Of a stretch of 64,000 nt of DNA, positions 2,541 to 46,500 are shown in pieces. The stretch is taken from the NCBI GenBank assembly GCA_021292105.1, contig CM037874.1, forward strand, positions 42,978,780 through 43,042,779. Reading direction: 5' to 3'. Made by a program: the position numbers and the translations under genes. Every line of letters starts with the position of its first letter. The first letter of the stretch is position 1. Below the pieces are notes generated by a model that ran no database searches, had not been told where the DNA came from, and saw only the letters and a list, made by a program, of their open reading frames with translations. Origin of the DNA: Anadara kagoshimensis (Eukaryota; Mollusca; Bivalvia; Arcoida; Arcidae).

Positions 2541-3341
2541 CTACTGTAGCTCAGTGGTCTGACCACGTGTATTTTATTTGATTTGATAAAAATGTATAAC
2601 ATATTATCAAAGTTAATTAAAATGCTAGTATGTAAAATACAGCTCAAAATGACCAGTAAATCAGAAAATAGTCAAACCTGTCTATAAAGGCCACCCAAGG
2701 GAACCAGTTAAAGTGGTCTTTATAGGCAGGTGGCCTTTATATAAATGTTCAAATAACATGAATAAAGAACAATTGGGATAAAATTCTTCTAACATTTATA
2801 AGCAGATGGCCCTTATATAGAGGCGGTCTTTAAGTCAGGTTGTACTGTATAGTTTTTATGCGCATTCAAAAGAATTATTACAAGATTCGTTAGCAGTAAG
2901 AGGCTCGTATTTCTTATAAAATACGACGGATTTTTTGGTTTATTTTAGGGGATTGTTTGGGGAGTTGCATACGAAGTCAAAGGACATGAGAATATCAAAG
3001 AAGCCATAAGAAATCTTCACATGAGGGAAGTGCGTGATGGTTTCAAAACAGTAGCTGTCGATTTTTACCCCGAATCGGAGAACGGTCAAGAATCACGAAA
3101 ACCTTATAAAGTTTTGGTGTATATTGCGACACCGGAAAACCCGCTATACACAGGACCATCCGACACTAAGACTTTGGGAAAACAAATTGCCGGCGCTAAG
3201 GGCTTTATGGGGTCTAATGTGGACTATGTTTTAATGTTAGCGGACTATGTTAGAACACACATACCAGAGGATAAGGATCCACATTTGTTTGAACTGGAGA
3301 AGTGTGTCAAGGCCGAATTGTTACGTGACTTTCTACAATAG
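26..3341 (+). CDS. ChaC-type gamma-glutamylcyclotransferase (5'-partial, three visible exons)
   Basis: Joined exons 26-216, 2447-2482 and 2949-3341, all meeting in phase 0, give about 206 residues. The family releases 5-oxoproline from glutathione in the cytosol. Visible motifs: WIFGYGSLLW near the start (the GYGSL gamma-glutamyl binding loop), RRFWQ, HRGTP, PGRVVTL in the tiny middle exon, VWGVAYEV, then MREVRDGF, whose Glu (codon 3027-3029) sits where the family has its catalytic acid, then YIATPENP and a C-terminal acidic/basic helix ending at TAG 3339-3341. Length and motif order fit metazoan ChaC; the IFGYGSL and GFMGSN/YVLMLADY wording is nearer CHAC1 than CHAC2, but I do not assign a paralogue. 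There is no ATG in frame between the stop at 13-15 and GYGSL, and a pyrimidine stretch plus AG precedes position 26, so the initiator exon is probably outside the window. Introns carry SINE and MITE insertions. Confidence 0.9.
240..640 (+). mobile_element. degenerate SINE body/tail in ChaC intron, split by a MITE
   Basis: Blocks 'gatgtctcgacgtaagtgaa' and 'cttgactgggacgtaaag' match the 3' region of the tRNA-headed SINEs at 3463-3770 and 29830-30195. The two blocks are adjacent there but separated here by the 423-590 insertion. The tRNA head is not recognisable. Confidence 0.5.
423..590. mobile_element. MITE with tactgtaaatgtatttattt ends
   Basis: Terminal inverted repeats (left aatgtaaatgtatttatttt; right, inverted, tactgtaaacgtatttaaat) bound about 168 bp inserted in the SINE. 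The same ends, with the 'ttcgcggtgta' motif, bound the 2.9 kb element at 32191-35125. Confidence 0.6.
641..2172. other. ChaC intron sequence without a recognisable gene
   Basis: AT-rich. It holds a 34-nt poly(A) run (1120-1153), a C run near 1686 and, at 1727-1765, a block with gaccttgacctttgcg resembling the core repeats at 33.8-34.9 and 43.6-45.1 kb. No coding exon seen. Confidence 0.5.
1120..1153. repeat. poly(A) tract
   Basis: 34 consecutive A, possibly the tail of a retroposed sequence; no companion structure identified. Confidence 0.9.
2173..2355. mobile_element. MITE family M1, copy 1 (~183 bp)
   Basis: Starts tacagtcaaacctgtctata and ends with the imperfect inverse (ggttggactgta). 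Internal short palindromes repeat the 'ggtggcctttata' theme. Copies at 2669-2849 and 62410-62592. Ends abut TA, so a TA target is possible. No coding capacity. Confidence 0.75.
2447..2482 (+). CDS. ChaC 36-bp micro-exon
   Basis: Twelve codons, PGRVVTLVKEDG, between AG (2445-2446) and GTAAGC (2483-2488). They supply exactly the PGRVVTL segment missing between the flanking exons and keep phase 0. It is too short for a standard ORF search. Confidence 0.88.
2496..2536. repeat. (CT)n microsatellite
   Basis: About 20 CT units starting 13 bp after the donor of the ChaC micro-exon, an unusually close position for a pyrimidine tract. Confidence 0.9.
2669..2849. mobile_element. MITE family M1, copy 2
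   Basis: Same family as 2173-2355 in the same orientation, in the next ChaC intron; first bases of the left end differ (ata instead of tac). Confidence 0.72.
2949..3341 (+). CDS. ChaC terminal exon
   Basis: Starts after TTTTAG (acceptor AG 2947-2948) with GIVWGVAYEV and runs 130 codons to TAG at 3341. It carries the proposed catalytic Glu in MREVRDGF. An ATG-only reading would wrongly start at 3021. Confidence 0.9.
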   Translation, partial: GIVWGVAYEVKGHENIKEAIRNLHMREVRDGFKTVAVDFYPESENGQESRKPYKVLVYIATPENPLYTGPSDTKTLGKQIAGAKGFMGSNVDYVLMLADYVRTHIPEDKDPHLFELEKCVKAELLRDFLQ

Positions 3342-5485: not shown

Positions 5486-6034
5486 AGGTGGCGTTTCCCT
5501 TAACGAAATCATGGTAGATCGAACCATTATGGTGTCACACATGGAAAATAATGTTAGTTCACCGTCAATGGAGTTCCACTAAACAGATTCCATAAAGTGT
5601 TACACATGGAAAACAATATTGGCTCACCGTCAATAGAGTTCCCCCAAACAGGATCCATAAAGTGTTACACATGGAAAATAATATTGGTTCACCATCAATG
5701 GAGTTCCCCAAAACGGATTCAATAAAGTGTTACACATGGAAAATAATATTTGTTCACCGTCAATGGAGATCCCCAAAACGGATTCAATAAAGTGTTACAC
5801 ATGGAAAATAATATTTGTTCACCGTCAATGGAGATCCCCAAAACGGATTCAATAAAGTGTTACACATGGAAAATAATATTTGTTCACCGTCAATGGAGAT
5901 CCCCAAAACGGATTCAATAAAGTGTTACACATGGAAAATAATATTTGTTCACCGTCAATGGAGATCCCCAAAACGGATTCAATAAAGTGTTACACATGGA
6001 AAATAACATTTGTTCACCGACAATGGGGTTCCCC
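5486..6034. repeat. satellite S65, left part
   Basis: Tandem monomers carrying 'acacatggaaaataatattt' and 'gttcaccgtcaatgga'. The spacing of 'caatgga' at 5761, 5826, 5891, 5956 and 6021 is 65 bp. The first units carry the 'gtagatcgaaccattatg' version seen in the right part. The array is interrupted by the piggyBac element and resumes at 11900. Confidence 0.88.
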
Positions 6035-6038
6035 TTAA
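6035..6038. other. TTAA target-site copy, left of outer piggyBac
   Basis: TTAA directly before CCCCCTTGCTGCCG; its partner is 11896-11899. Confidence 0.85.
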
Positions 6039-6492
6039 CCCCCTTGCTGCCGTGAGTAAATTTCATTTGGTTCCCCAGTGCCGGCAGATTGTGGAAAAAA
6101 TTGAATTTTCATTAGTTTTTATGGTATGAAAACTATAATAAACGAACAAATTTTGTTAAAACTTACAAGTATTTACAACAACAAAGATCATGTTTGAATA
6201 ATTTGAAACGGCATTTCTTGAGTGACGTCATTAAAACTTCCCATTTGTGACGTAATATGTCTGACGTAATTGTCATTTACCTACTGCGTTATTGACAGGT
6301 GCTACGAGAAGATCGACGCGTTTTGTCGCTGCTTAACACTTTTTCTTTTCTTTTTTACATATTATTATTAATGTTGTTCTTTATATTTGGTTATCACACG
6401 TTTTGTTTTCCCGGATTGCTAAACGTAAAAAAATAAATATGGAAGTGTTTATGAATTTATTATTTTGTTCATTTATATGGATGCTGTTTTAG

Positions 6493-6666
6493 TTCAGGTT
6501 GGTAGATGAAACCTTGCCGCCGGTATAAAACCACCGAACTTCGGCAAGCGAACTGAAGAACTTTCTTACACTTGGATCTGTCTCGAGAGGAATTTGAACC
6601 TTGGCGATGAGAGGGGTTGTGTTACGTAAATCTTGAGCTTGCTTTAGATCCTTGATCACCTATTTT
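6493..6666 (-). other. possible further exon or remnant in PB-outer
   Basis: Minus-strand open stretch after an AATAG acceptor-like site at 6667: VIKDLKQAQDLRNTTPLIAK, later VRKFFSSLAEVRWFYTGG, ending at a stop near 6490. It does not resemble the piggyBac C-terminus. If spliced from the 7081 donor the phase would give a short tail instead. Origin unknown. Confidence 0.2.
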
Positions 6667-7081
6667 TTATGTCATAGCTAGAAAACAATTACTAGTATAA
6701 ATATAAAAAGTAACATAATGTAATGATTTTCTCGACCTTTAAGTTTGAAAATGCATGCAAATTTCGAAACACTTAGATCAAATTGTCAAATAATTACCAA
6801 ATAATCAGTAACTGTCCTTTGGTTTTTTTATTACATTTCATTATTTCGTCATCTGATAATAGTCAACATGGTAAAGTTTACAAAATAAAAATAATAATTT
6901 AAAAAATCCAATTGCACTTTCACTTTCTATTCCTCCGCAACTTGATCGCCATAGTTTAACCTTGTATAATCCAATTTGTTAGTTTATAAGTTTTAACTTT
7001 GCGTTGGGATTGTGATTAATACATCGATATACATGCTTGTTTTTACTAACATGTACAGTGCGTTTTAAATTTAAAACTTAC

Positions 7082-7204
7082 CAGTATATAACATAACTTT
7101 ATGAGTAAATCCAGTATCTGATTCCGCCAGCACAAACAATTTGGCTCCCCATCTGTGGGTCTTTTTGCCTGGCATATACTGGACAAGGTTATTACGGCCT
7201 TTAA
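7082..7204 (-). pseudogene. piggyBac transposase, continuation after the nested insert
   Basis: On the minus strand from the inner TTAA: KGRNNLVQYMPGKK, THRWGAKLFVLAESDTGF, then HKVMLYTG. This is the family's YMP..K.HRWG..L..L.DS.TGY region, and the D in ESDTG fits the second catalytic Asp. Frame and register fit the N-terminal part if the nested element is removed with one TTAA. It ends at G|GTAAGT (donor 7081-7076). No convincing third-Asp or cysteine-rich C-terminal region is found downstream. Confidence 0.82.
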
Positions 7205-8114
7205 CCCTTTCAATGCCAGATGTTTGAAAATGTATTACGTCACGTCATTGTTGACATGTGCAATTATCACGTCATCAGTGCCAGGAGTTTTCAGAAGCCG
7301 TAATTAGTTTGTGTAAATGTGCACTTATGGTGCGCGTTTTTATTGCGTCAACCTGAATGTTAAAAACTCGTTAACACATGTTTAGATTCACCATTTACTT
7401 AAAATTTAATGCTTCATAAACATGTTATGATGTCAAGTCAATCTTTTAATATATAGATGTACAGGCCTTGAATAATTACTCATCATAAGAAAAGCGGGTG
7501 TGATAAATACGAAAACACCGCCCAGCACAGAGTTCAACATGACAATCGGATTAAAGCGGTCACCAGTACAAACAGCACATTTCATATTTTTCTCTCTTAG
7601 TTTTGTCAACGAAGTGCCTTTCTGTAAGCTGTGGTAAAATTCTCCCGTCTGAAATGTCTATGCCCTTCTATCAATCTGTTACGAAACTCCCAAGTACTAC
7701 ATTTATAGTGCATGATTGAATGTCATAGCAGATGTAGGCATTAACCAAAATAAAGATTACATAATGTTTTGTTATTAATATAAAGTCTTTTTTAAAAGTA
7801 ACGTATTACAATTTTCTAGATAGAACAGTGGCGTGGCGTTCATATTTAAGCCTATAATCCTGTGCTTGCACATTATTGTTTAATAAAAAAAAATTAAAAT
7901 TAATTCAGTCTGTCATTATGTACAAAAGAAAATAAAATACAAAATATTGCGAAAATAAAACAATTTTTTTTTCAAATCTTAACAGAGAAATTCGTCTCGC
8001 TATCAGTTATAAGCCAATGTGTTCGTCTAACTCGGATGATAAGCCGTGTACATTTGTGAGCCCAATACCTTTAAACTTTAAACCCAGACCCTATATGAAT
8101 TCAGAACAAAATAA

Positions 8115-8530
8115 AATGGAATAATAGAAGGTGGCCTAGTTGATCGAGTTGTGGAAATCTCGGTCAATCCAGGTGCAGACCACGCTCGGTATTGCTAAAC
8201 TTCTTGTTAAGCGGGACATTATTCCGAATGAGCTAATTGTTAATATATAATTTATAGACCATGTAGAAATAAGCAATAGAGTGGTTGCTTCACACATTAC
8301 ATCAGAGAACAAGATTGTTCGTTGAATGAGATTTTACGTCCAAGTTAAGAATGTTTCCCTGAAAATGAATATTAAGACCATCAGCTGTAGGTAAAGTAAT
8401 AGACATTTTAACCTTTGCAGTGCGCTCAGGGCAATGTACAAGTAAGGTTCTTTAACGTTGCAGCACTGGCCACTGTGGAGGAGCATCAATTTCCATTTCT
8501 CGTCCGAAGGGCCCGTAGCAAAAAACCGAA
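8115..8530. repeat. SINE-related repeat inside PB-inner
   Basis: Shares 'catcagagaacaa..ttgttc', 'cctttgcagtgcgctcaggg' and 'ggttctttaacg' blocks with 35985-36330 and with ChaC intron 1. Old and diverged. Confidence 0.5.
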
Positions 8531-8869
8531 TTTTAACCCTTTTTACCCTGTTAATATTGATTTAGAATGCAGAAAAATGCACTAAATTGTTCCATTTTTA
8601 AAAAATTGCCGGGAAGGGTGGAGCATGCACCTGTAACAACTTAGTTAGGACGCGATAACGGCGCGTTTGGTGCCCGATTTGGCACCAGGCGTGCTCTTCC
8701 AGTCCTTTCACGCTACGCCACCGTAGAGGCTAGTTAAAACATTGCAGACAGGCCACATATATCAAAAGTACAAGCAAGAATACAAACTACAAATCAACCA
8801 CAAGCCTAACGATTCATGTTTAATTCACTATCTCAAAATCAAAATATAAACTTTGAAAATTAAATAAAA

Positions 8870-8990
8870 CGCACGAACTTCTAACACGGAAGTGAATTCA
8901 GGTGCTTTGGAAGGGCAAGCTCCTTCTGTCTAGTTACGTCTATAATTACCTGCCATGCGTGACATAACATGGGGCTCACTGGACCTTAAC
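8870..8990. repeat. retroelement 3' UTR fragment in PB-inner
   Basis: 'caggtgctttggaagggcaagctccttctgtctagttac' (in parts) matches the region downstream of the RT relics at 30740-30800 and 35450-35500. No coding part here. Confidence 0.4.
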
Positions 8991-9552
8991 AATCACCTGC
9001 CATATTTTAGGAAATCGTGAGTGTACTAGCTCTCTAAAGGTCTCCGATAGTGCGCGTCAGGAAAAAGCAGATCAGAAATACATGGCTTCAGCTTGTGTTT
9101 AGTTTACAATGACTGACCGGGTCTTTTTGACAAAAATTGTATTCGACCGAAAGAAGTTGAATTTCATAAAATTTACACCCTAGGAAATATTTAAATTGCA
9201 CGAGCGAGCGGGGGTGGGGGTGTTCGAGCTGTTGAAGTTAGAGTCATAGAGGTGCATTTACATAGCATATAGTAGGAATTTGGTCGGGGCGAGCAGACGA
9301 TCGCGACTCCTTGTTATCCAGGGCATTCGAGGTATCGATGTTCGAGCAATCGAAATTTGACTGTACGTGCACATTCCTCGATTAATAAAATTGTCTATAA
9401 CATCCAACCAACGAACCAACACAAATTCAATAAACACACCACTACTTGTGCAGTTCAACTACGTGGGCGATTTTATCATATCGCCAAAATAAAATATAGA
9501 GTTTGAATAATAAATACTAGTAGTGTGCAAATCACACCATGATCATATTTTT

Positions 9553-9652
9553 GTATTGACCCGTCATATACCATTTTTTAATTTAATCATAAAATACATT
9601 CAAAAATGTATTGTCATATATGATTTAAATCATGGTATATGGCAGATCAGTC
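9553..9652. repeat. ~100-bp inverted repeat (small MITE or hairpin)
   Basis: gacccgtcatataccatttt on the left and, inverted on the right, gatctgccatataccatgat, with AT-rich arms of about 33 bp. Inside PB-inner. Confidence 0.5.
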
Positions 9653-10950
9653 CACCTATTCAAAATTTTTATTCAATAATTTGCTTTTGATACGCCTGTT
9701 CTCTACATCTCAACCAAGGTTTTTTTTTCACTTGGCTGTCAGTTCATGATCAGGTATGGTAAAGAAAATATTATTACCTGGAGAAAACAATGGACATTGG
9801 CAAACACATTGGCCAATTTTCAAACATAACAAACAACCATGAGTAGGATTCGAACCAAACACGGGCAGTAAAATACGCTGTTATACTTTACATACACAAG
9901 TCCCGTTACGTAACTTAGAAAACTTACATCAACAAAATTTTGCACTTTTTAATTATTATTCTCTTCACTATTCAACAATGTTTGATTCAATAGTTTGAAT
10001 AGCGTATACATTTAAAATCCAGAATATAAACAACATACATTCAAAGCTCGGTGCAAGTTAAGAGTAGAATTTGTACCGCAAAGCTTGTTAACTTGGCAAA
10101 AAACCGCATACATGTAGAAAAACGCTTTGGTTATCAATCGTGGGAATTTCAGGGTGAAACATGTACAGATGATAGCGATTATATTTATATGAATTGGTAT
10201 ATTGAATAAAAAGTTAAACGCACATTATCCTTGTTCCCAAAGATAATACACACTTTTTCTGACATTACAATAACCTGTCTTTTTGTGACATTACAATTAT
10301 CTGTCAAAAAAGACATCGTGCCCATGTAGATTTCTTGTACTGCCGATGATAACCCTTTCATGTTATAAACCTCTGATCGGGGTATTTAACTTGATGATAT
10401 ATTCATCGCTGGTCTCAAAATGAGCAGAAATAACAGTAGGCGTTTTTACGGGTCACACGGTTTCTGACGCGTTTTTCAACAAAGATTCCCGAAAGTTAAA
10501 ACATTTTTACCCAGTACATTTATTATCTAAATACAATTAAAAAAAACACTTTTTTCCTTTCTAATGATATTAAACTTTTCATGTTTGACTTTAAAATTAT
10601 GGGAAATAAAGACCATCCTTATCGCTATAAGACGCTATTTATTCCATATTGTGCACCTTATAGTGTTACTGACGATAGATATGACGTCACAGATACTTTT
10701 ATCAATGACGTCATTAAAAGTTATTATTACGTCATGGAATTGACGGTTGAGAATCACATCAAGTGATTTATTATCGAATATTACTCTAAGCATGTCATAA
10801 ACATCAAGTACTTGCTCAATAAAACACTATCAATATTTATACATAAAAACGACATAAATGTCGCTTTGGCACGGAACCCCTAAACGACTTTTGTGTCGTT
10901 TTGGCATTGAACTCTCGGACGACATAAATGTCGCATTGGCATTGAAAGGG

Positions 10951-11630
10951 TTAAACCCTACCATAGACTCATCAATAGATACATCTCTATTTAACTGGTA
11001 ATTGGAGGGGAAGGAATGATTAAAAAGGTTTATGATGGGCCTTATTTTGTGTCCTGGATCATAATTAGCATGTCCTCTTGGATTGGCGGTATCATTATCA
11101 TTGCAATGTAAAAATCTGAGAATATTTTGAAATCTGTTTCTACTGAGTATTTTCCCATATGAGGGGACGTGAAACAAAAAATACTCCTCCGACATGTTCC
11201 AATAAGATTCAATACTTGGTTTTTTAACTATGCCCATGCCAAGCAGCAAACCAAGGAAGGCTCGCATCATCCTCTGGTCAGTATCTTGCCATTCATTCAT
11301 CCTGGAATATTGTGTTAGGGGTCGCACTATTGTTGGACCAGCGTAACGGTTTGTTTCGGCCACAAGGAGGTCTATTAAATTTACATTATTAATATGGTCC
11401 TGACAGATAATATCAAAATATTCAATGGGCGATGCCTCAACATTTAGTGCAGTTAGGGGCCCGGGAATCCGACTGAAAGGTCTTGGTGGAAAAGGGATCT
11501 CATACGAATCATCTACAGGCACATTTACCCAAGGACCAAATACACTACGTTGTGCTGTAGGCGGTGCATCTTCTTCGGCATCACTTTCTACTCCGCTTTC
11601 CACCTCGCTGATATCGGATTGTTCGTCCAT
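10951..11630 (-). pseudogene. piggyBac transposase, N-terminal part (interrupted)
   Basis: ATG at 11630-11628. About 226 codons read before the nested element begins; the frame then runs about 40 junk codons into it (to 10830). Seen: an acidic N-terminus (EVESGVESDAEEDA), then the DDE_Tnp_1_7-type sequence with YWNMSEEYF and RNRFQNILRFLHCND, and SIDESMVGF, where the Asp of SIDES is the first catalytic acid of the family. The frame is broken exactly at the TTAA in codons GF-K. Before the start codon are TGACGTCA-like sites (11665-11710). Transposase made from this copy would lack the rest of the catalytic core. Confidence 0.88.
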
Positions 11631-11639
11631 TGTTCAGGA

Positions 11640-11715
11640 GCCGAAGTAACTTCGCGTTACTTTTTGACGTCATTTACGTCGCGATGACGTCATAATTTGA
11701 CACGTTACGTCACTT
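11640..11715 (-). promoter_or_regulatory. CRE/ATF-like site cluster upstream of the piggyBac transposase
   Basis: TGACGTCA at 11686-11693, with further gacgtca/acgtca words around it (11666-11712), immediately 5' of the minus-strand ATG at 11630. In metazoans this palindrome binds CREB/ATF bZIP proteins; a promoter role is inference. Confidence 0.4.
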
Positions 11716-11899
11716 CAAAATCACGCTCTTTCATTACCGTCTATCATAAACGTAATGATTTTAACATAAAACGATAACTTGACGATAAATTTGTCGTATT
11801 TAATTGCGATTATCATTTTTCCAAATGCAAGGACATATATGTCCTTCCGGCAGTAAGCCGGAAAGGACATATATGTCCTTCCGGCAGCAAGGGGGTTAA

Positions 11900-12290
11900 A
11901 TTCCATAAAGTGTTACACATGGAAAATAATATTTGTTCACCGTCAATGGAGTTCCCCAAAACAGGATCATGTAGATCGAACCATTATGATGTCACACATG
12001 GAAAATAATATTTGTTCACCGTCAATGGAGTTCCCCAAAACAGGATCATGTATAGATCGAACCATTATGATGTCACACATGGAAAATAATATTTGTTCAC
12101 CGTCAATGGAGTTCCCCAAAACAGGATCATGTATAGATCGAACCATTATGATGTCACACATGGAAAATAATATTTGTTCACCGTCAATGGAGTTTTCCTA
12201 AACAAAATCCATTAAAAGTGTTACACATGGAAAATAACATTGGCGCACCGTCAATTCCACCCCCCCAAAAAAAAAACGGAACCATGGTAG
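11900..12290. repeat. satellite S65, right part (81-82 bp version)
   Basis: Same core as 5486-6034. Here most units carry the longer linker 'gatcatgtatagatcgaacc', so the spacing of 'cacatggaaaat' is about 81-82 bp. Resumes immediately after the right TTAA of PB-outer. Confidence 0.88.
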
Positions 12291-15886: not shown

Positions 15887-18800
15887 AGTACAATACAGAC
15901 CTGTCTAAAGTTTAACACTGACCTTACAAAAGGGAGTACAGTACAGACCTGTCTAAAGTTTAACACTGTCCTAACGAAAATGAGTACAGTACAGACCTGT
16001 CTAAAGTTTAACACTGACCTAACGAAAGGGAGTACAGTACAGACCTGTCTAAAGTTTAACAATGACCTAACGAAAATGAGTACAGTACAGACCTGTCTAA
16101 AGTTTAACACTGACCTAACGAAAGGGAGTACACTACAGACCTGTCTAAAGTTTAACACTGACCTAACGAAAATGAGTACAGTACAGACCTGTCTAAAGTT
16201 TAACACTGACCTAACGAAAGGGAGTACAGTAGAGACCTGTCTAAAGTTTAACACTGACCTAACGAAAGGGAGTACAGTAGAGACCTGTCTAAAGTTTAAC
16301 ACTGACCTAACGAAAGGGAGTACACTACAGACCTGTCTAAAGTTTAACACTGACCTAACGAAAGGGAGTACAGTAGAGACCTGTCTAAAGTTTAACACTG
16401 ACCTAACGAAAGGGAGTACACTACAGACCTGTCTAAAGTTTAACACTGACCTAACGAAAGGGAGTACAGTAGAGACCTGTCTAAAGTTTAACACTGACCT
16501 AACGAAAGGGAGTACACTACAGACCTGTCTAAAGTTTAACACTGACCTAACGAAAGGGAGAATAGTACAGACCTGTCTAAAGTTTAACACTGACCTAACG
16601 AAAAGGAGTACACTACAGACCTGTCTAAAGTTTAACACTGACCTAACGAAAGGGAGTATAGTACAGACCTGTCTAAAGTTTAACACTGACCTAACGAAAA
16701 GGAGTACACTACAGACCTGTCTAAAGTTTAACACTGACCTAACGAAAGGGGGTATAGTACAGACCTGTCTAAAGTTTAACACTGACCTAACGAAAGGGAG
16801 TACAGTACAGACCTGTCTAAAGTTTAACACTGACCTAACGAAAGGGAGTACACTACAGACCTGTCTAAAGTTTAACACTGACCTAACGAAAGGGAGTACA
16901 GTAGAGACCTGTCTAAAGTTTAACACTGACCTAACGAAAGGGAGTACACTACAGACCTGTCTAAAGTTTAACACTGACCTAACGAAAGGGAGTACAGTAG
17001 AGACCTGTCTAAAGTTTAACACTGACCTAACGAAAGGGAGTACAGTACAGACCTGTCTAAAGTTTAACACTGACCTAACGAAAAGGAGTACACTACAGAC
17101 CTGTCTAAAGTTTAACACTGACCTAACGAAAGGGAGTACAGTACAGACCTGTCTAAAGTTTAACACTGACCTAACGAAAAGGAGTACACTACAGACCTGT
17201 CTAAAGTTTAACACTGACCTAACGAAAGGGAGTACAGTACAGACCTGTCTAAAGTTTAACACTGACCTAACGAAAGGGAGTACAGTACAGACCTGTCTAA
17301 AGTTTAACACTGACCTAACGAAAGGGAGTACAGTAGAGACCTGTCTAAAGTTTAACACTGACCTAACGAAAGGGAGTACAGTAGAGACCTGTCTAAAGTT
17401 TAACACTGACCTAACGAAAGGGAGTACAGTAGAGACCTGTCTAAAGTTTAACACTGACCCAACGAAAGGGAGTACAGTAGAGACCTGTCTAAAGTTTAAC
17501 ACTGACCTAACGAAAGGGAGTACAGTAGAGACCTGTCTAAAGTTTAACACTGACCTAACGAAAGGGAGTACACTACAGACCTGTCTAAAGTTTAACACTG
17601 ACCTAACGAAAGGGAGTACAGTAGAGACCTGTCTAAAGTTTAACACTGACCTAACGAAAGGGAGTACACTACAGACCTGTCTAAAGTTTAACACTGACCT
17701 AACGAAAGGGAGTACACTACAGACCTGTCTAAAGTTTAACACTGACCTAACGAAAGGGAGTACACTACAGACCTGTCTAAAGTTTAACACTGACCTAACG
17801 AAAGGGAGTACACTACAGACCTGTCTAAAGTTTAACACTGACCTAACGAAAGGGAGTACAGTAGAGACCTGTCTAAAGTTTAACACTGACCTAACGAAAG
17901 GGAGTACAGTAGAGACCTGTCTAAAGTTTAACACTGACCTAACGAAAATGAGTACACTACAGACCTGTCTAAAGTTTAACACTGACCTAACGAAAGGGAG
18001 TACACTACAGACCTGTCTAAAGTTTAACACTGACCTAACGAAAGGGAGTACAGTAGAGACCTGTCTAAAGTTTAACACTGACCTAACGAAAGGGAGTACA
18101 CTACAGACCTGTCTAAAGTTTAACACTGACCTAACGAAAGGGAGTACACTACAGACCTGTCTAAAGTTTAACACTGACCTAACGAAAGGGAGTACAGTAG
18201 AGACCTGTCTAAAGTTTAACACTGACCTAACGAAAGGGAGTACACTACAGACCTGTCTAAAATTTAACACTGACCTAACGAAAGGGAGTACAGTAGAGAC
18301 CTGTCTAAAGTTTAACACTGACCTAACGAAAGGGAGTACACTACAGACCTGTCTAAAGTTTAACACTGACCTAACGAAAATGAGTACACTACAGACCTGT
18401 CTAAAGTTTAACACTGACCTAACGAAAAGGAGTACAGTACAGACCTGTCTAAAGTTTAACACTGACCTAACGAAAAGAGTACAGTACAGACATGTCTAAA
18501 GTTTAACACTGACCTAACTAAAGGGAGTACAGTACAGACCTGTCTAAAGTTTAACACTGACCTAACGAAAGGGAGTACAGTACAGACCTGTCTAAAGTTT
18601 AACATTGACCTAACGAAAGGGAGTACAGTACAGACCTGTCTAAAGTTTAACACTGACCTAACGAAAGGGAGTGCAGTAGAGACCTGTCTAAAGTTTAACA
18701 CTGACCTAACGAAAGGGAGTACAGTACAGACCTGTCTAAAGTTTAACATTGACCTAACGAAAGGGAGTACAGTACAGACCTGTCTAAAGTTTAACACTGA

Positions 18801-21800
18801 ACTTACGAAAGGGAGTACAGTACAGACCTGTCTAAAGTTTAACATTGACCTAACGAAAGGGAGTGCAGTACAGAACTGTCTAAAGTTTAACATTGACCTA
18901 ACGAAAATGAGTACAGTACAGACCTGTCTAAAGTTTAACATTGACCTAACGAAAGGGAGTACAGTACAGAACTGTCTAAAGTTTAACATTGACCTAACGA
19001 AAATGAGTACAGTACAGACCTGTCTAAAGTTTAACACTGTCCTAACGAAAGGGAGTGCAGTACAGACCTGTCTAAAGTTTAACACTGACCTAACGAAAGG
19101 GAGTACAGTACAGACCTGTCTAAAGTTTAACACTGACCTAACGAAAGAGAGTACAGTACAGACCTGTCTAAAGTTTAACACTGACCTAACGAAAATGAGT
19201 ACAGTACAGACCTGCCTAAAGTTTAACACTGTCCTAACAAAAGGGAGTACAGTATAGACCTGTCTAAAGTTTAACACTGACCTAACGAAAGGGGGTATAG
19301 TACAGACCTGTCTAAAGTTTAACACTGACCTAACGAAAGGGAGTACAGTACAGACATGTCTAAAGTTTAACACTGACCTAACGAAAGGGAGTACAGTAAA
19401 GACCTGTCTAAAGTTTAACACTGACCTAACGAAAGGGAGTACAGTACAGACCTGTCTAAAGTTTAACTCTGTCCTAACGAAAGGGAGTGCAGTACAGACC
19501 TGTCTAAAGTTTAACACTGACCTAACGAAAGGGAGTACAGTACAGACCTGTCTAAAGTTTAACTCTGTCCTAACGAAAGGGAGTGCAGTACAGACCTGTC
19601 TAAAGTTTAACACTGACCTAACGAAAGGGAGTACAGTACAGACCTGTCTAAAGTTTAACACTGACCTAACGAAAGGGAGTACAGTACAGACCTGTCTAAA
19701 GTTTAACACTGACCTAACGAAAGGGAGTACAGTACAGACTTGTCTAAAGTTTAACACTGACCTAACGAAAGGGAGTACAGTACAGACCTGTCTAAAGTTT
19801 AACACTGACCTAACGAAAGGGAGTATAGTACAGACCTGTCTAAAGTTTAACACTGTCCTAACGAAAATGAGTACAGTACAGACCTGTCTAAAGTTTAACA
19901 CTGACCTAACGAAAATGAGTACAGTACAGACCTGTCTAAAGTTTAACACTGACCTAACGAAAATGAGTACAGTACAGACCTGTCTAAAGTTTAACACTGA
20001 CCTAACGAAAATGAGTACAGTACAGACTTGTCTAAAGTTTAACACTGACCTAACCGAAAGGGAGTGCAGTAGAGACCTGTCTAAAGTTTAACACTGACCT
20101 AACGAAAGGGAATACAGTACAGACCTGTCTAAAGTTTAACACTGTCCTAACGAAAATGAGTACAGTACAGACCTGTCTAAAGTTTAACACTGACCTAACG
20201 AAAATGAGTACAGTACAGACCTGTCTAAAGTTTAACACTGACCTAAGGAAAGGGAGTACAGTACAGACCTGTCTAAAGTTTAACACTGTCCTAACGAAAA
20301 TGAGTACAGTACAGACCTGTCTAAAGTTTAACACTGACCTAACGAAAATGAGTACAGTACAGACCTGTCTAAAGTTTAACACTGACCTAACGAAAGGGAG
20401 TACAGTACAGATCTGTCTAAAGTTTAACACTGACCTAACAAAAGGGAGTACAGTACAGACCTGTCTAAAGTTTAACACTGACCTAACAAAAGGGAGTACA
20501 GTACAGACCTGTCTAAAGTTTAACACTGACCTAACGAAAGGGAGTACAGTACAGACCTGTCTAAAGTTTAACACTGACCTAACGAAAGGGAGTACAGTAC
20601 AGACCTGTCTAAAGTTTAACACTGACCTAACGAAAATGAGTACAGTACAGACCTGCCTAAAGTTTAACACTGTCCTAACAAAAGGGAGTACAGTATAGAC
20701 CTGTCTAAAGTTTAACACTGACCTAACGAAAGGGAGTACAGTACAGACCTGTCTAAAGTTTAACACTGACCTAACGAAAGGGAGTACAGTACAGACCTGT
20801 CTAAAGTTTAATACTGACCTAACGAAAGGGAGTACAGTACAGACCTGTCTAAAGTTTAACACTGACCTAACGAAAGGGAGTGCAGTACAGACCTGTCTAA
20901 AGTTTAACACTGACCTAACGAAAGGGAGTACAGTACAAACCTGTCTAAAGTTTAACACTGACCTAACGAAAGGGAGTACAGTACAGACCTGTCTAAAGTT
21001 TAACACTGACCTAACGAAAAGGAGTACAGTACAGATCTATCTATAGTTTAACACTGACCTAACGAAAGGGAGTATAGTACAGACCTGTCTAAAGTTTAAC
21101 ACTGACCTAACGAAAAGGAGTACAGTACAGACCTGTCTAAAGTTTAACACTGACCTAACGAAAAGGAGTACAGTACAGATCTATCTATAGTTTAACACTG
21201 ACCTAACGAAAAGGAGTACAGTACAGACCTGTCTAAAGTTTAACACTGACCTAACGAAAGGGAGTACAGTACAGATCTATCTATAGTTTAACACTGACCT
21301 AACGAAAGGGAGTATAGTACAGACCTGTCTAAAGTTTAACACTGACCTTACAAAAGGGAGTACAGTACAGACCAGTCTAAAGTTTAACATTGACCTAACG
21401 AAAGGGAGTACAGTACAGACCTGTCTAAAGTTTAACACTGACCTAACGAAAGGGAGTACAGTACAGACCTGTCTAAAGTTTAACACTGACCTAACGAAAG
21501 GGAGTACAGTACAGACCTATCTAAAGTTTAACACTGACCTAACGAAAGGGAGTACAGTACAGACCTGTCTAAAGTTTAACACTGACCTAACGAAAGGGAG
21601 TACAGTACAGACCTGTCTAAAGTTTAACACTGACCTAACGAAAGGGAGTACAGTACAGACCTGTCTAAAGTTTAACACTGACCTAACGAAAGGGAGTACA
21701 GTACAGACCTGTCTAAAGTTTAACACTGACCTAACGAAAGGGAGTACAGTACAGACCTGTCTAAAGTTTAACACTGACCTAACGAAAGGGAGTACAGTAC

Positions 21801-23019
21801 AGACCTGTCTAAAGTTTAACACTGTCCTAACGAAAGGGAGTATAGTACAGACCTATCTAAAGTTTAACACTGTCCTAACGAAAGGGAGTACAGTACAGAC
21901 CTGTCTAAAGTTTAACACTGACCTAACGAAAGGGAGTACAGTACAGACCTGTCTAAAGTTTAACACTGTCCTAACGAAAGGGAGTATAGTACAGACCTAT
22001 CTAAAGTTTAACACTGTCCTAACGAAAGGGAGTACAGTACAGACCTGTCTAAAGTTTAACACTGACCTAACGAAAGGGAGTATAGTACAGACCTATCTAA
22101 AGTTTAACACTGTCCTAACGAAAGGGAGTACAGTACAGACCTGTCTAAAGTTTAACACTGTCCTAACGAAAGGGAGTACAGTACAGACCTGTCTAAAGTT
22201 TAACACTGTCCTAACGAAAGGGAGTATAGTTCAGACCTGTCTAAAGTTTAACACTGACCTAACGAAAGGGAGTACAGTACAGACCTGTCTAAAGTTTAAC
22301 ACTGACCTAACGAAAGGGAGTACAGTACAGACCTGTCTAAAGTTTAACACTGACCTAACGAAAGGGAGTACAGTACAGACCTGTCTAAAGTTTAACACTG
22401 TCCTAACGAAAGGGAGTATAGTACAGACCTATCTAAAGTTTAACACTGTCCTAACGAAAGGGAGTACAGTACAGACCTGTCTAAAGTTTAACACTGACCT
22501 AACGAAAGGGAGTACAGTACAGACCTGTCTAAAGTTTAACACTGACCTAACGAAAGGGAGTACAGTACAGACCTGTCTAAAGTTTAACACTGACCTAACG
22601 AAAGGGAGTACAGTACAGACCTGTCTAAAGTTTAACACTGTCCTAACGAAAGGGAGTATAGTACAGACCTATCTAAAGTTTAACACTGTCCTAACGAAAG
22701 GGAGTACAGTACAGACCTGTCTAAAGTTTAACACTGACCTAACGAAAGGGAGTACAGTACAGACCTGTCTAAAGTTTAACACTGTCCTAACGAAAGGGAG
22801 TATAGTACAGACCTATCTAAAGTTTAACACTGTCCTAACGAAAGGGAGTACAGTACAGACCTGTCTAAAGTTTAACACTGACCTAACGAAAGGGAGTATA
22901 GTACAGACCTATCTAAAGTTTAACACTGTCCTAACGAAAGGGAGTACAGTACAGACCTGTCTAAAGTTTAACACTGTCCTAACGAAAGGGAGTATAGTAC
23001 AGACCTGTCTAAAGTTTAA

Positions 23020-24240
23020 CACTCTCCTAACGAAAGGGAGTAAAGTACAGACCTGTCTAAAATTTAACACTGACCTAACGAAAGGGAGTACAGTACCGCA
23101 CTGTCTAAAGTTTAACCCTGACCTAACGAAAGGGAGTATAGTACAGACATGTCTAAAGTTTAACACTGACCTAACGAAAGGGAGTATAGTACAGACCTGT
23201 CTAAAGTTTAAAACTGACCTAACGAAAGGAAGTACAGTACAGACCTGTCTAAAGTTTAACACTGACCTAACGAAATGGAGTAAAGTACAGACCTGTCTAA
23301 AGTTTAACACTGACCTAACGAAAGGGAGTATAGTACAGACCTGTCTAAAGTTTAACACTGAACTAACGAAAAGGAGTATAGTACAGACCTGTCTAAAGTT
23401 TAACACTGACCTCACGAAAGGGAGTACAGTACAGACCTATCTAAAGTTTAACACTGACCTAACGAAAGGGAGTACAGTAAAGACCTGTTTAAAGTTTAAC
23501 ACTGACCTAACGAAAGGGAGTACAGTAAAGACCTGTCTAAAGTTTAACACTGACCTAACGAAAGGGAGTACAGTACAGACCTGTCTAAAGTTTAACACTG
23601 ACCTAACGAAAGGGAGTACAGTAAAGACCTGTTTAAAGTTTAACACTGACCTAACGAAAGGGAGTACAGTACAAACCTGTCTAAAGTTTAACACTGACCT
23701 AACGAAAGGGGGTACAGTACAGACCTGTCTAAAGTTTAACACTGACCTAACGAAAGGGAGTACAGTATAAACGTGTTTAAAGTTTAACACTGTCCTAACG
23801 AAAGGGAGTACAGTGTAGACCTGTCTAAAGTTTAACACTGACCTAACGAAAGGGAGTACAGTACAAACCTGTCTAAAGTTTAACACTGACCTAACACAAG
23901 GGAATACAGTACAGACCTGTCTAAAGTTTAACACTGACCTAACAAAATAAGTACAGTACAGACCTGTCTAAAGTTTAACACTGACCTAACGAAAGGGAGT
24001 ACAGTACAGACCTGTCTAAAGTTTAACACTAACCTAACAAAAGGGAGTATATTACAGATCTGTCTAAAGTTTAACACTGACCTAACGAAAGGGTGTACAG
24101 TAAAGACCTGTCTCAAGTTTAACCCTGACCTAACAAAAGGGAGTACAGTACAGACATGTCTAAAGTTTAACACTGACCTAACGAAAGGGAGTACAGTACA
24201 GACCTGTCTAAAATTTAACACTGACCTAACGAAAGGGAGT
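23020..24240. repeat. higher-order block, copy 1, in the 48-bp array
   Basis: A series of rare variants (cagtaccgcactgtct, cagtgtagacc, aaacgtgtttaaag, gggtgtacagtaaagacctgtctcaag) recurs in the same order at about 25.2-26.3 kb, indicating block duplication; the 24.5-24.66 and 26.5-26.74 kb stretches share the 'ccgcactg' variants too. Confidence 0.75.
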
Positions 24241-25169
24241 ACAGACCTGTCTAAAGTTTAACACTGTCCTAACGAAAGGGAGTACAGTACAGACCTGTCT
24301 AAAGTTTAACACTGTCCTAACGAAAGGGAGTATAGTTCAGACCTGTCTAAAGTTTAACACTGACCTAACGAAAGGGAGTACAGTACAGACCTATCTAAAA
24401 TTTAACACTGTCCTAACGAAAGGGAGTACAGTACAGACCTGTCTAAAGTTTAACACTGTCCTAACGAAAGGGAGTATAGTACAGACCTGTCTAAAGTTTA
24501 ACACTCTCCTAACGAAAGGGAGTAAAGTACAGACCTGTCTAAAATTTAACACTGACCTAACGAAAGGGAGTACAGTACCGCACTGTCTAAAGTTTAACAC
24601 TGACCTAACGAAAGGGAGTACAGTACCGCACTGTCTAAAGTTTAACACTGACCTAACAAAAGGGAGTACAGTACAGACCTGTCTAAAGTTTAACACTCTC
24701 CTAACGAAAGGGAGTACAGTACAGATCTGTCTAAAGTTTAACACTGAACTAACGAAAGGGAATACAGTACAGACCTGTCTAAAGTTTAACACTGTCCTAA
24801 CGAAAGGGAGTACAGTACAGACCTGTCTAAAGTTTAACACTGACCTAACAAAAGGGAGTACAGTACAAACCTGTCTAAAGTTTAACACTGTCCTAACGAA
24901 AGGGAGTACAGTACAGACCTGTCTAAAGTTTAACACTGACCTAACAAAAGGGAGTACAATACAGACCTGTCTAAAGTTTAACACTGACCTAACGAAAGGG
25001 AGTACAGTACAGACCTGTCTAAAGTTTAACACTCTCCTAACGAAAGGGAGTACAGTACAGATCTGTCTAAAGTTTAACACTGAACTAACAAAAGGGAGTA
25101 CAGTACAGACCTGTCTAAAGTTTAACACTGACCTAACGAAAGGGAGTACAGTACAGACATGTCTAAAGT

Positions 25170-26270
25170 TTAACACTGACCTAACGAAAGGGAGTATAGT
25201 ACAGACCTGTCTAAAGTTTAAAACTGACCTAACGAAAGGAAGTACAGTAGCAAGACCTGTCTAAAGTTTAACACTGACCTAACGAAAGGGAGTACAGTAC
25301 AGACCTGTCTAAAGTTTAACACTGACCTAACGAAAGGAGTATAGTACAGACCTGTCTAAAGTTTAACACTGACCTAACGAAAGGGAGTACAGTACAGACC
25401 TCTCTAAAGTTTAACACTGACCTAACGAAAAGGGAGTACAGTAAGACCTGTTTAAAGTTTAACACTGACCTAACGAAAGGGAGTACAGTAAAGACCTGTC
25501 TAAAGTTTAACACACTGACCTAACGAAAGGGAGTACAGTAAGACCTGTCTAAAGTTTAACACTGACCTAACGAAAGGGAGTACAGTAAAGACCTGTTAAA
25601 GTTTAACACTGACCTAACGAAAGGGAGTACAGTACAAACCTGTCTAAAGTTTAACACTGACCTAACGAAAGAGGGTACAGTACAGACCTGTCTAAAGTTT
25701 AACACTGACCTAACGAAAGGGAGTACAGTAAACGTGTTTAAAGTTTAACACTGTCCTAACGAAAGGGAGTACAGTGTAGACCTGTCTAAAGTTTAACACT
25801 GACCTAACGAAAGGGAGTACAGTACAAACCTGTCTAAAGTTTAACACTGACCTAACAAAAGGGAATACAGTACAGACCTGTCTAAAGTTTAACACTGACC
25901 TAACAAAATAAGTACAGTACAGACCTGTCTAAAGTTTAACACTGACCTAACGAAAGGGAGTACAGTACAGGCCTGTCTAAAGTTTAACACTAACCTAACA
26001 AAAGGAGTATAGTACAGATCTGTCTAAAGTTTAACACTGACCTAACGAAAGGGTGTACAGTAAAGACCTGTCTCAAGTTTAACCCTGACCTAACAAAAGG
26101 GAGTACAGTACAGACATGTCTAAAGTTTAACACTGACCTAACAAAAGGGAGTACAGTACAGACCTGTCTAAAGTTTAACACTGACCTAACGAAAGGGAGT
26201 ACAGTACAGACCTGTCTAAAATTTAACACTGACCTAACGAAAGGGAGTACAGACCTGTCTAAAGTTTAAC
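25170..26270. repeat. higher-order block, copy 2, in the 48-bp array
   Basis: Counterpart of 23020-24240 with extra 1-3 bp indels, e.g. cagtagcaagacc (about 25247) and cagtaaacgtg (about 25727). Confidence 0.72.
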
Positions 26271-28465
26271 ACTGTCCTAACGAAAGGGAGTATAGTTCAG
26301 ACCTGTCTAAAGTTTAACACTGACCTAACGAAAGGGAGTACAGTACAGACCTATCTAAAGTTTAACACTGTCCTAACGAAAGGGAGTATAGTACAGACCT
26401 GTCTAAAGTTTAACACTGTCCTAACGAAAGGGAGTATAGTACAGACCTGTCTAAAGTTTAACACTCTCCTAACGAAAGGGAGTAAAGTACAGACCTGTCT
26501 AAAATTTAACACTGACCTAACGAAAGGGAGTACAGTACCGCACTGTCTAAAGTTTAACACTGACCTAACGAAAGGGAGTACAGTACCGCACTGTCTAAAG
26601 TTTAACACTGACCTAACAAAAGGGAGTACAGTACAGACCTGTCTAAAGTTTAACACTGACCTAACGAAAGGGAGTACAGTACAGACCTGTCTAAAGTTTA
26701 ACACTGACCTAACGAAAGGGAGTACAGTACCGCACTGTCTAAAGTTTAACACTGACCTAACTAAAGGGAGTACAGTACAGAACTGTCTAAAGTTTAACAC
26801 TGACCTAACGAAAATGAGTACAGTACAGACCTGTCTAAAGTTTAACACTGACCTAACGAAAGGGAGTACAGTACAGACATGTCTAAAGTTTAACTCTGTC
26901 CTAACGAAAGGGAGTACAGTACAGACCTGTCTAAAGTTTAACTCTGTCCTAACGAAAGAGAGTACAGTACAGACCTGTCTAAAGTTTAACACTGTCCTAA
27001 CGAAAGGGAGTATAGTACAGACCTGTCTAAAGTTTTACACTGACCTAACGAAAGGGAGTACAGTACAGATCTGTCTAAAGTTTAACACTGACCTAACGAA
27101 AGGGAGTACAGTACAGACCTGTCTAAAGTTTAACACTGTCCTAACGAAAGGGAGTACAGTACAGACCTGTCTAAAGTTTAACACTGACCTAACGAAAATG
27201 TGTACATTACCACGCTGTCTAAAGTTTAACAATGACCTAACGAAAGGGAGTACAGTACAGCGCTGTCTAAAGTTTTACACTGACCTAACGAAAGGGAGTA
27301 CAGTACAGATCTGTCTAAAGTTTAACACTGACCTAACGAAAATGAGTACAGTACCACACTGTCTAAAGTTTTACACTGACCTAACGAAAGGGAGTACAGT
27401 ACAGATCTGTCTAAAGTTTAACACTGACCTAACGAAAGGGAGTACAGTACAGACCTGTCTAAAGTTTAACACTGACCTAACGAAAGGGAGTACAGTACAG
27501 ACATGTCTAAAGTTTAACACTGACCTAACGAAAGGGAGTATAGTACAGACCTGTCTAATGTTTAACACTGACCTAACAAAAAGGAGTACAGTACAAACAT
27601 GTCTAAAGTTTAACACTGACCTAATGAAAGGGAGTACAGTACAGACCTGTCTAAGTTTAACACTGACCTAACGAAAGGGAGTACAGTACAGACCTGTCTA
27701 AAGTTTAACACTGACCTAACGAAAGGGAGTACAGTACAGAACTGTCTAAAGTTTAACATTGACCTAACAAAAATGAGCACAGTACAGACCTGTCTAAAGT
27801 TTAACACTGACCTTACAAAAGGGAGTACAGTACAGACCTGTCTAAAGTTTAACACTGACCTAACGAAAGGGAGTACAGTACAGACCTGTCTAAAGTTAAC
27901 ACTGACCTAACGAAAGGGAGTACAGTACAGACCTGTCTAAAGTTTAACACTGACCTAACGAAAATGAGTACAGTACAGACCTGTCTAAAGTTAAACACTG
28001 ACTTTACAAAAGGGAGTACAGTACAGACCTGTCTAAAGTTTAACACTGACAACAAAAATGAGTACAGTACAGACCTGTCTAAAGTTTAACACTGACAACA
28101 AAAGGGAGTACAGTACAGACCTGTCTAAAGTTTAACACTGACCTAACGAAAGGGGGTACAGTACAGACCTGTCTAAAGTTTAACACTGACAACAAAAGGG
28201 AGTACAGTACAGACCTGTCTAAAGTTTAACAATGACCTAACGAAAGGGAGTACAGTACAGACCTGTCTAAAGTTTAACACTGACCTAACGAAAATGAGTA
28301 CAGTACAGACCTGTCTACAGTTTAACACTGACCTAACGAAAACGAGTCGACGCAGGGTTGTCGAGTGGTCAGATATGGCTAACTAGTGGTAAAAAAGCTG
28401 CCGAGAGATCGAAAGGTGTAGAGATATAGTAGTTGAGATAAGCTGTCGATTCGAGTTAGCTAAGT

Positions 28466-43500: not shown

Positions 43501-46500
43501 AATTTTATTTAACTGATTTTAAATGTCCAGGTAATTTACTCCCTCTGTGAGCCCCACTGAAAGGTGAAACAAGAGGCCCAATAGGGCCAGTACGGTTCAC
43601 CTGGGCCGCACAAAAGCACAATAAATACTACATTTAAGGAGCAATAACTCTGATGTGGATATTTAGATATTTATGAAACTTGCTACTCACATCTGTGACC
43701 TTGACCTTCGAACCAATGAGCATAATCTATATATTAAAATGATCATTGCATCAATACTAACAATATTCTAATATACATGCCTATACAAAAAGTTCATAGT
43801 TCTCGAGATAATGAACCTTTTTGGTGTTGTTTAGCAACCGTGACCGTGACCTTTGGACCCATGACCTTTCTCTGTACATCAAAATGATTGTGGTATCAAT
43901 ACCTACAACATTCTAATATACATGCCTATACAAAAAGTTTATAGTTTTCAAGATAATGAACCATTTCAGTATTCTTTTGTATCTGTGACCTTGACCTTTG
44001 AACCAATGACCTTAATCTATATATCAAAATGATCATTACATCAATACCAACATATTCCAATGTACATGCCTATACAAAAAGTTTATAGTTTTCAAGACAA
44101 TTAACCATTTCAGTATTCTTTTGTATCTGTGACCTTGACCTTTGAACCAATGACCTTAATCTATATATCAAAATGATCATTACATCAATACCAACATATT
44201 CCAATGTACATGCCTATACAAAAAGTTTATAGTTTTCAAGATAATTAACAATTTCAGTATTCTTTTGTATCTGTGACCTTGACCTTTGAACCAATGACCT
44301 TAATCTATATATCAAAATGATCATTACATCAATACCAACATATTCCAATGTACATGCCTATACAAAAAGTTTATAGTTTTCAAGATAATTAACCATTTTG
44401 GTATTGATTTGCTACTGTGACCTTGACCTTTGGACCCATTACCTTTTTCTATACATCAAAATGATCGTTGTATCAATACCTTCAACATTCTAATATACAT
44501 GCTTAGTAGGCTATACAAAAAGTTCATAGTTTTCAAGATAATGAGCCATTTCAGTATTCTTTTGCATCTGTGACCTTGATCTTTGAACCAATGACCTTAA
44601 TCTATATATCAAAATGATTGTTACATCAAAACCAACAACATTCCAATATACATGCCTATACAAAAAGTTTACAGTTTTCGAGATAATGAACCTTTTTGGT
44701 ATTGTTTTGCTACTGTAACCTTGACCTTTTCACCCATGACCTTTTTCAATACATCAAAATGATTGTTGTATCAATACCTACAATATTCTAATATACATGC
44801 CTATACAAAAAGTTTATAGTTTTCGAGATAATGAACCTTTTTGGTATTGTTTTGCTACTGTAACCTTGACCTTTTCACCCATGACCTTTTTCTATACATC
44901 AAAATGATTGTTGTATCAATACCTACAACATTCTAATATACATGCCTACATAAAAAGTTTATAGTTTTCAAGATAAAGAAACATTTTGGTATTGTTTTGC
45001 TACTGTGACCTTGACCTTTGAACCAATGACCTTTATCTATACATCAAAATGATCGTTACCTCAATTCCAACAATATTTTAATTTACATGCCTATATAAAA
45101 AGTTTATAGTTTTCCAGATAATAAATAATATTAGAAAGGTAAAAAATTAGGTCATGACCTTCATAATTGACCATTTTGAAGGTAATTACAAGAATATGTC
45201 AAAACTGAAAACCCCATGTCATTATCTGGTCAAATAGTCAAGTTATAACAATTTGAAGCTATTTTACGATTTTTTCTAAATTAAACCCAAAAACACGTAA
45301 CCTATTTTTTATCCGAATTTTACACAATGAACAAACTATAGGCTTAAGACCCTAGAGAAGCCAAATATCACATCAGATTTTTTCTCCAATCGGGACTTTC
45401 GGAGAAGAAGATTTTTTAAGATTTTTGCACCCCTAGGTCACCTTGACCTAGTTATGGTAGCCATGGCAATGCCACAAACAAATCTGAATTGCACCGGCCC
45501 ATATATACTTCTCACCAAATTTCATTGAAATCTGTCTTGTAGTTTCAAAGGAGATGTCGAAAATAGGTGTTAACGACGCACGCACGCACCCACACATGCA
45601 CACACACTGCGCTATGCCATAACCTCACATGACCTTCGGTCAGGTGAGCTAAAACTGAAAGCCCCTCACCCAGACTTCATTACTGCCAATATCATCAAAT
45701 TTGGTTTTGTAGTTTTGGAGGAGTTGATTAAAATGTGAAAAGTTTACACACAACGGATGATGGACGACGATAGATAACAATAGCTCATCTGAGGCTATCT
45801 TACAACCCAATTTTCAATGATCTATATATTGGATTTTATAATATTTTCACATAATAAGCGGAATGACATTAATTTTTAAATATTTTTGATTTTAAAAAAA
45901 TTGGATAGTTTTGAAGTTATTAAAAAATACATGGGCTACACTTTTTCCAATCTGTCAAAATTCATCTGAGGCAGGATGCAAACAATCTGCTATAAAAAGA
46001 AAACCACTGCATTATAGGAAATACAATTTGGTGGTATTAAATATATATATCCACCATGTATTTGTTGCAAATTTTAATAGGCTAGCATAATTATGTGGAG
46101 AGATGTCGATCAATGTTCAAAGCTCACTTATCCTACTTCGCATAAATTTTGACCGATTGGAAAAAGTGTATCCCATATTTTTTTAAATAACTTCAAAAAT
46201 TTAAATAATTTTTTAAAATCAAAATCATATTTTAAAAATTGAGGTCATGCCGGGTATTATGTAAAAATACTATATAAATCCAATGAATATTTATTGAAAT
46301 ATAGATCAATGAAAATTGGGTTGTAATATTTTGTCATGCTACCTGGGATGAATTTTGACCGGTTGGAAAAAGTGTAGCCCATGTAAATCAAAAACATTTT
46401 TTAAAAATTGAGGTCATGCTGGATATAATGTGAAAATATTGTAAAAACCCAATAGATATTTTTTCAAATATAGATCAATTTAAGATTTTGCCAGCCTGCC

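Follow-up and report, generated by a model that had tools for sequence, protein, structure and literature searches.

Cut-and-paste transposition at TTAA is the established mechanism of the piggyBac superfamily, and non-autonomous piggyBac elements and miniature inverted-repeat transposable elements (MITEs) are a known kind. PiggyBac is also known to insert into TTAA sites of its own sequence, a process called autointegration (PMC3952818). Here we describe a stretch of 64,000 nucleotides from Anadara kagoshimensis (contig CM037874.1; 'the window' denotes the whole of this stretch), in which one piggyBac-type element lies inside the transposase gene of another. This observation is confirmed, and we regard it as very probable that its explanation lies in the nesting of elements of different piggyBac families, with a later insertion, a deletion, and a closeness of insertions to R ends. 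The two elements, referred to as outer and inner, comprise the following features:

6035..6038: duplicated TTAA target on the left flank of the outer element
6039..11895, minus strand: outer piggyBac-type element, its ends aligned with relatives
7082..7204, minus strand: outer transposase, second coding piece (KGRNNLVQYMPGKKTHRWGAKLFVLAESDTGFTHKVMLYTG), which in the paralogues runs on from the first without a break
7201..7204: TTAA duplication, left of the inner element
7205..10950, plus strand: transposase-less inner piggyBac-type element of 3746 bp, with its L end at 7205 and its R end, which is palindromic, at 10950
10849..10946: palindromic repeats of the ACGACATAAATGTCG type, subterminal at the inner R end and spaced 35 bp apart
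10951..10954: duplicated TTAA on the right flank of the inner element
10955..11628, minus strand: outer transposase, first coding piece with an open frame (MDEQSDIS...SMVG), placed by structure and profile matches
11829..11880: two subterminal copies of the palindrome AAGGACATATATGTCCTT at the outer R end, from repeat analysis
11896..11899: duplicated TTAA target on the right flank of the outer element

The outer element measures 5857 bp with its insert, or about 2.1 kb once the insert and one TTAA are subtracted, and has a plain L end at 6039 and a palindromic R end at 11895, from which its gene is read on the minus strand. Its 14 terminal bases, CCCCCTTGCTGCCG, are found unchanged at just two places in the 64 kb, 6039-6052 (+) and 11882-11895 (-); if up to three mismatches are allowed, the window has 4 matches where 0.57 are expected, a count reached in 0 of 100 shuffles. 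A preliminary description, made from the sequence alone, had placed this element with its TTAA and 14-bp ends at 6039-11895, and those coordinates are right and the ends exact. Among the features of the piggyBac superfamily, the outer element has the TTAA duplication, the matching ends and a PF13843 (DDE_Tnp_1_7) transposase, and lacks a complete triad of catalytic aspartates and the C-terminal zinc-binding domain. The inner element, likewise borne out at 7205-10950 with its TTAA and matching ends, is bounded by a perfect inverted repeat of 19 bases, TTAA included (7200-7218 and 10937-10955). It too has the target duplication and matching ends, and it encodes no PF13843 transposase: a Pfam search of the six frames of 7205-10950 returned no match at E <= 1. 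An autointegration product, in which insert and target are the same element, is ruled out here, since the ends differ (CCCCCTTGCTGCCG vs CCCTTTCAATGCCA). Within loci L010-L029, the only matches to the inner element are the inner copy in L018 and stretches of at most 194 bases in L021 and L029; 55 bases match in L009.

The gene interrupted by the inner element is recognizable on both sides of it. The first coding piece (10956-11630, minus strand) corresponds to positions 1-135 of the 349-position PF13843 profile (E 1.2e-27), and the second (7080-7202, minus strand) to positions 138-177 (E 7.7e-4, 19.3 bits); because these parts of the profile adjoin, the two pieces are neighbours within the family, which is the outcome of the alignment to piggyBac transposases that had been proposed as a check. 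Among solved structures the first piece (10953-11630) matches piggyBat 9c0f (E 3.1e-12) and 6x67 (E 3.8e-4), the latter labelled only 'Transposase' and taken by us to be the piggyBac of Trichoplusia ni. The aspartate of SIDES in this piece aligns with residue 268 of 6x67, presumably the first catalytic aspartate of piggyBac. The second piece alone gave chance-level matches only against solved structures; directly after it stands a donor-like GTAAGT (7081-7076). The frame was predicted to pass from ...SMVGF to KGRNN across a single TTAA, and it does run through the site. The further claim that the insertion fell between the first and second catalytic aspartates holds insofar as the site precedes the profile position of the second, and fails insofar as this copy has no such aspartate.

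Two paralogues in the same genome, L027 and L068, are uninterrupted at the insertion site, and the search proposed earlier for uninterrupted copies did return loci with the same ends. L027 lies on the same contig, 4.3 Mb away, and differs from the window at 22 of 945 columns in the R part and at 1 of 121 in the second piece, directly after which the two sequences diverge. L068, on C6, is truncated on both sides and has 1-base and 2-base length changes after the site. With both paralogues empty and both coding pieces matching piggyBac, the locus shows the homology and the empty-site paralogues whose absence the preliminary description had named as telling against it.

The same description placed the insertion in the catalytic core. 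That this core was otherwise whole is not supported: the rest of the gene is also missing, through an internal deletion at about 6963-6965:

6927..6964, minus strand: remaining tail of the last exon (..TRLNYGDQVAEE stop), read by eye
6963..6965, minus strand: internal deletion junction of the outer copy, where intron 1 is joined to the last-exon tail with 3 bases shared

Intron 1 continues past the splice donor at 7081 for about 120 bases, which match L068 as far as 6963 (97.5%), while the window from 6965 to the left end at 6039 matches L009 (96.0%), where the counterpart of this segment reads by eye as the tail of a cysteine-rich reading frame (..CCVVC...CPDC..). The adjoining L069, part of the same copy on C4, matches profile positions 265-342 of PF13843 (E 1.4e-4, 21.8 bits, just under the cut-off), where we would expect the third catalytic aspartate; this C4 copy (L009/L069) is itself damaged. 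In the three minus-strand frames of 6039-7082, PF13843 had no match at E <= 1. Judged by these alignments, the outer copy is a deletion derivative from which the second and third catalytic aspartates and the cysteine-rich end are gone. The deletion may have preceded the insertion or followed it, so the gene was not necessarily killed by the insert. An open frame at 6495-6659 (55 residues) was considered as a lost exon and rejected, having no Pfam family and one chance-level structure match (E 1.7).

Copies of both families were counted in the 1.115-Gb genome by exact ends only. There are 21+22 occurrences of the outer end and 40+38 of the inner end together with its TTAA, whereas the backward-read control gave 0 in each case. 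These occurrences make up 24 outer loci, 19 of them paired (eight of these being 4.5-4.7 kb), and 46 inner loci, 32 of them paired; TTAA stands at both ends of 16/16 outer elements printed. Some loci are duplicated segments (L015 and L016 are duplicates; inner loci on C4, at 27.9 and 28.2 Mb, share flanks, and those on C2 do likewise at one end), so both 24 and 46 somewhat overstate the number of independent insertions. The first coding piece of the outer transposase is matched within 5 kb at three of the 24 outer loci (the window, L027 and C4). Matches to the outer transposase are enclosed by three of the 46 inner loci, on C3 (42%, with a 234-residue open frame), C6 (43%) and C13 (49%, with one stop), which is a lower bound because 150 of 191 candidates were scored, the end pairing of long loci being assumed. 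Since loci with the same ends enclose such matches, the inner copy in the window is, on sequence grounds, most likely non-autonomous, within a family that has a related transposase of its own; the copy has no transposase itself, so its movement was not self-supplied, and we infer mobilization in trans. A search for relatives in viral contigs, phages and plasmids led nowhere, with a single pattern match (L001) in the viral-contig search.

Two cases of an inner element nested in an outer one were found, in the window and in L018, at different sites. L017 and L018 lie 1.2 Mb apart on C6, and their elements are identical at 99.7% over 4428 bases and 100% over 137 bases. L018 alone contains a 3738-bp inner-family insert, 137 bases from the R end and flanked by an exact 4-base TTAA repeat. 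Their outside flanks are also shared (100% and 98.8% over 245 bases), which makes the two loci copies of one duplicated segment and rules out a recent transposition of the outer element; as an empty and a filled copy of one segment, the pair is a clean test object. The duplicated C6 segments L017/L018 and L015/L016 each hold an outer element, and of L015 and L016 only the latter has an exact-end inner element nearby.

Inner elements are found beside outer ones more often than their numbers would suggest. Four of the 46 inner loci lie inside or less than 1 kb from one of the 24 outer loci, where uniform placement predicts 0.008 (P(>=4) = 1.9e-10, rising to 0.0009 at 50-fold local density; P(>=3) = 9.2e-8 without the pre-selected window case). 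The inner-to-outer distances are 0 in the window and in L018, 265 bp on C17 and 882 bp on C6, and the next nearest is 311,455 bp. The closest inner-inner pair, by comparison, is 146 kb apart and the closest outer-outer pair 1.2 Mb, several of the closest pairs being duplicated segments. The gap and flank sequences of the side-by-side cases on C17 and C6 do not align, and the possibility that these are one duplicated inner-plus-outer segment is thereby ruled out. In a fifth close case, on C16, an inner R end and the R end of a third piggyBac-type family share one TTAA, with the gene of the third family following its R end. Across all five cases (four outer, one third-family) the palindromic R end of the inner element is the one nearest the partner's palindromic end, the distances from inner R to partner R being 945 bp in the window, 137 in L018, 265 on C17, 882 on C6 and 0 on C16. 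Were orientation free, the probability would be 1/1024 for the five cases or 1/256 for the four outer ones, for a pattern noticed post hoc. At L066/L067 (G000:C16:5640900-5646000) the inner element is wedged among piggyBac-type genes, and a transposase fragment ends before its L end.

We also surveyed 53 of the 78 inner ends for a piggyBac-like end within 1 kb. TTAACCC was present in 13 of the 53 flanks, of which 6 were accepted by eye as piggyBac-like and 7 dropped (at R ends L047 and L090; at L ends L035, L041, L052, L058 and L084). Another family (TTAACCCTCTTGCTGCCACGG type, found near L002 as well) accounts for some of the neighbouring ends. The suggestion that the R end alone attracts insertions, which had arisen from 30 ends (R 4/14, L 0/16), was weakened by this survey and not upheld on the 53.

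Several points weigh against our overall reading and should be set beside it. Scored alone, the second coding piece falls below the family cut-off of 22.4; Pfam recognizes no family in the cysteine-rich end of the C4 copy, which was read by eye only; and profile positions 178-264, the part with the second aspartate, appear in no copy seen. The empty sites at L027 and L068 are those of paralogues, not of alleles of this locus from other individuals, and the empty L017 could be explained by later excision as well. Present mobility of either family is unsupported, no whole transposase having been found and none sought. As to the clustering, true densities may differ from those of the exact-end copies counted; other insertions, not at TTAA, also occur within outer copies (L010/L021/L023, L012, L013, L015/L016, L021); and piggyBac-like ends in the survey are not significantly more frequent near R ends (4/23) than near L ends (2/30; p 0.38).

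The preliminary description had offered an explanation for the insertion site in the GF-K codons, whose TTAA would make piggyBac transposase genes a self-limiting landing site. TTT-AAR codons do yield TTAA, as is seen also in L027, L068 and L067, but base composition predicts 4.9 TTAA in exon 1, where 5 are present, and 40.1 in the inner element, where there are 45; the GF-K TTAA is moreover vacant in those same three genes (three further genes, no survey), and of the two nested inner copies only that of the window uses it, L018 being nested elsewhere. We consider this explanation scarcely credible. Plain chance, by which a TTAA-targeting family with dozens of copies would occasionally hit another element, deserves more weight: TTAA is frequent throughout (12.1 per kb for the window and 11.6 for L017), other insertions, not at TTAA, lie within outer copies as well, the densities rest on exact-end copies, and some loci that share flanks are not independent (outer L015/L016 and L017/L018; inner C4 and C2). 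It nevertheless seems unlikely, if quite possible, in view of an excess that persists at 50-fold local density; merging the duplicates costs a few loci and leaves all four close cases in place, and the C17 and C6 cases do not reduce to one duplicated segment.

The most likely cause of the clustering, tentative as it is, may be a shared preference for promoter-like chromatin, in which piggyBac transposases would insert close to active promoters and R ends, as the 5' promoter ends of transposase genes, would be landing zones for any piggyBac. It would account for the inner R end being nearest the partner's R end in 5/5 close cases, and it is consistent with the crowding of TGACGTCA, which we take to be a CRE-type site, at both ends of outer elements (in 17 of these, full sites occur at 3.8 and 4.0 per kb in the 500-base ends vs 0.05 inside). 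The ends scored for TGACGTCA were 6039-6538, 11396-11895, 10451-10950 and those of L010-L026; the inner R end has 2 sites and the inner L end 0. PiggyBac also favoured highly expressed genes in mouse embryonic stem cells, as reported in PMC5333637. A shared hot-spot would, however, predict close inner-inner and outer-outer pairs, of which there are none below 146 kb and 1.2 Mb, and the lack of a significant difference between R and L ends in the frequency of piggyBac-like neighbours argues against it as well. A less likely possibility, and one to which we give slightly less credence than to chance, is tethering, in which the cysteine-rich end domain of the inner transposase would bind the near-identical outer R palindrome and deliver its cargo to a nearby TTAA. 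The palindrome cores GACATATATGTC and GACATAAATGTC differ at one base and occur in the window elements at R ends and not at L ends (first 200 bases). Calling cards use fusions of the piggyBac transposase. Transposase-directed insertion mapping exists as a method (PMC6219186), and PMC11707139 describes cysteine-rich domains in piggyBac and piggyBat that bind palindromes. Set against tethering are the small number of cases (4 or 5) and their post hoc pattern, the expectation that a family's own R ends should attract equally or more when no close inner-inner pair exists, the less similar palindrome of the third family (ACCATATATGGT), which yet abuts an inner element, and the inner family's transposase end domain, seen in no locus. 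That the families home on one another through the partner's subterminal palindrome, inserting within about 1 kb and disabling each other by sequence-guided nesting, is a broader idea that we hold to be improbable, more so than tethering itself.

Returning to the reading we favour, that of nested elements of different families, the outer element would have inserted first, into a TTAA of a host minisatellite. The inner, gene-less element of the other family would then have entered the outer transposase exon by TTAA cut-and-paste, moved by a transposase supplied from elsewhere, and the outer copy would have lost the middle and end of its gene by internal deletion. The choice of site is probably not due to the GFK codons, and more likely reflects a tendency of these families to land near each other's palindromic ends (R, the 5' end of the gene). 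The host repeats on either side of the outer element are:

5532..6034: left-hand host minisatellite, made of 65-bp units
11911..12194: right-hand host minisatellite, made of 81-bp units

When the short outer flanks are rejoined, they give an array unit containing a TTAA. A host repeat (ACAAAAAGAAYGAAAACTC...GCCATTTAA) that is by eye the same at L060:6800-6840 and L027:3985-4030 (-) is entered by an outer element at L060, and in L027 it follows the broken exon end. Elsewhere in the window there are further arrays: a 12.5-kb array at 15887-28341 in which a 48-base unit is repeated about 260 times and several frames stay open (STVQTCLKFNTDLTKG repeats); large arrays at 54829-61408 of 61- to 63-base units with higher-order periods of 105, 122 and 168 bases; and two separate arrays of 145-base units at 33854-34857 and 43693-45122, related by eye. 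The only cellular gene identified is represented by two ChaC-like stretches (PF04752) at 16-393 and 2949-3338 (+).

Nesting as such is ordinary. An excess of one family beside another, if it survives controls, would be natural evidence for guided piggyBac insertion, a matter of relevance to the limits that transposon families set one another and to the site choice of piggyBac vectors. Among the titles listed in literature searches none dealt with this inner/outer family pair, which is no proof of absence in print. Compared with the piggyBac superfamily as represented by piggyBac and piggyBat, the elements described here are alike in their TTAA duplication, ends starting with CCC, PF13843 transposase and subterminal palindromes, and unlike in that the outer copy is without the second and third catalytic aspartates and the cysteine-rich end, and the inner without a gene. 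The likeness to piggyBac autointegration, as set out in PMC3952818, is that a piggyBac transposon enters a TTAA in piggyBac DNA and disrupts it; in that system, however, the element enters itself, whereas here an element with different ends has entered another. As in non-autonomous piggyBac elements and MITEs, the ends have been kept and the gene lost, with movement presumably by an outside transposase, but these elements are long where MITEs are miniature, the inner being 3.7 kb and 8 of the 19 paired outer loci 4.5-4.7 kb.

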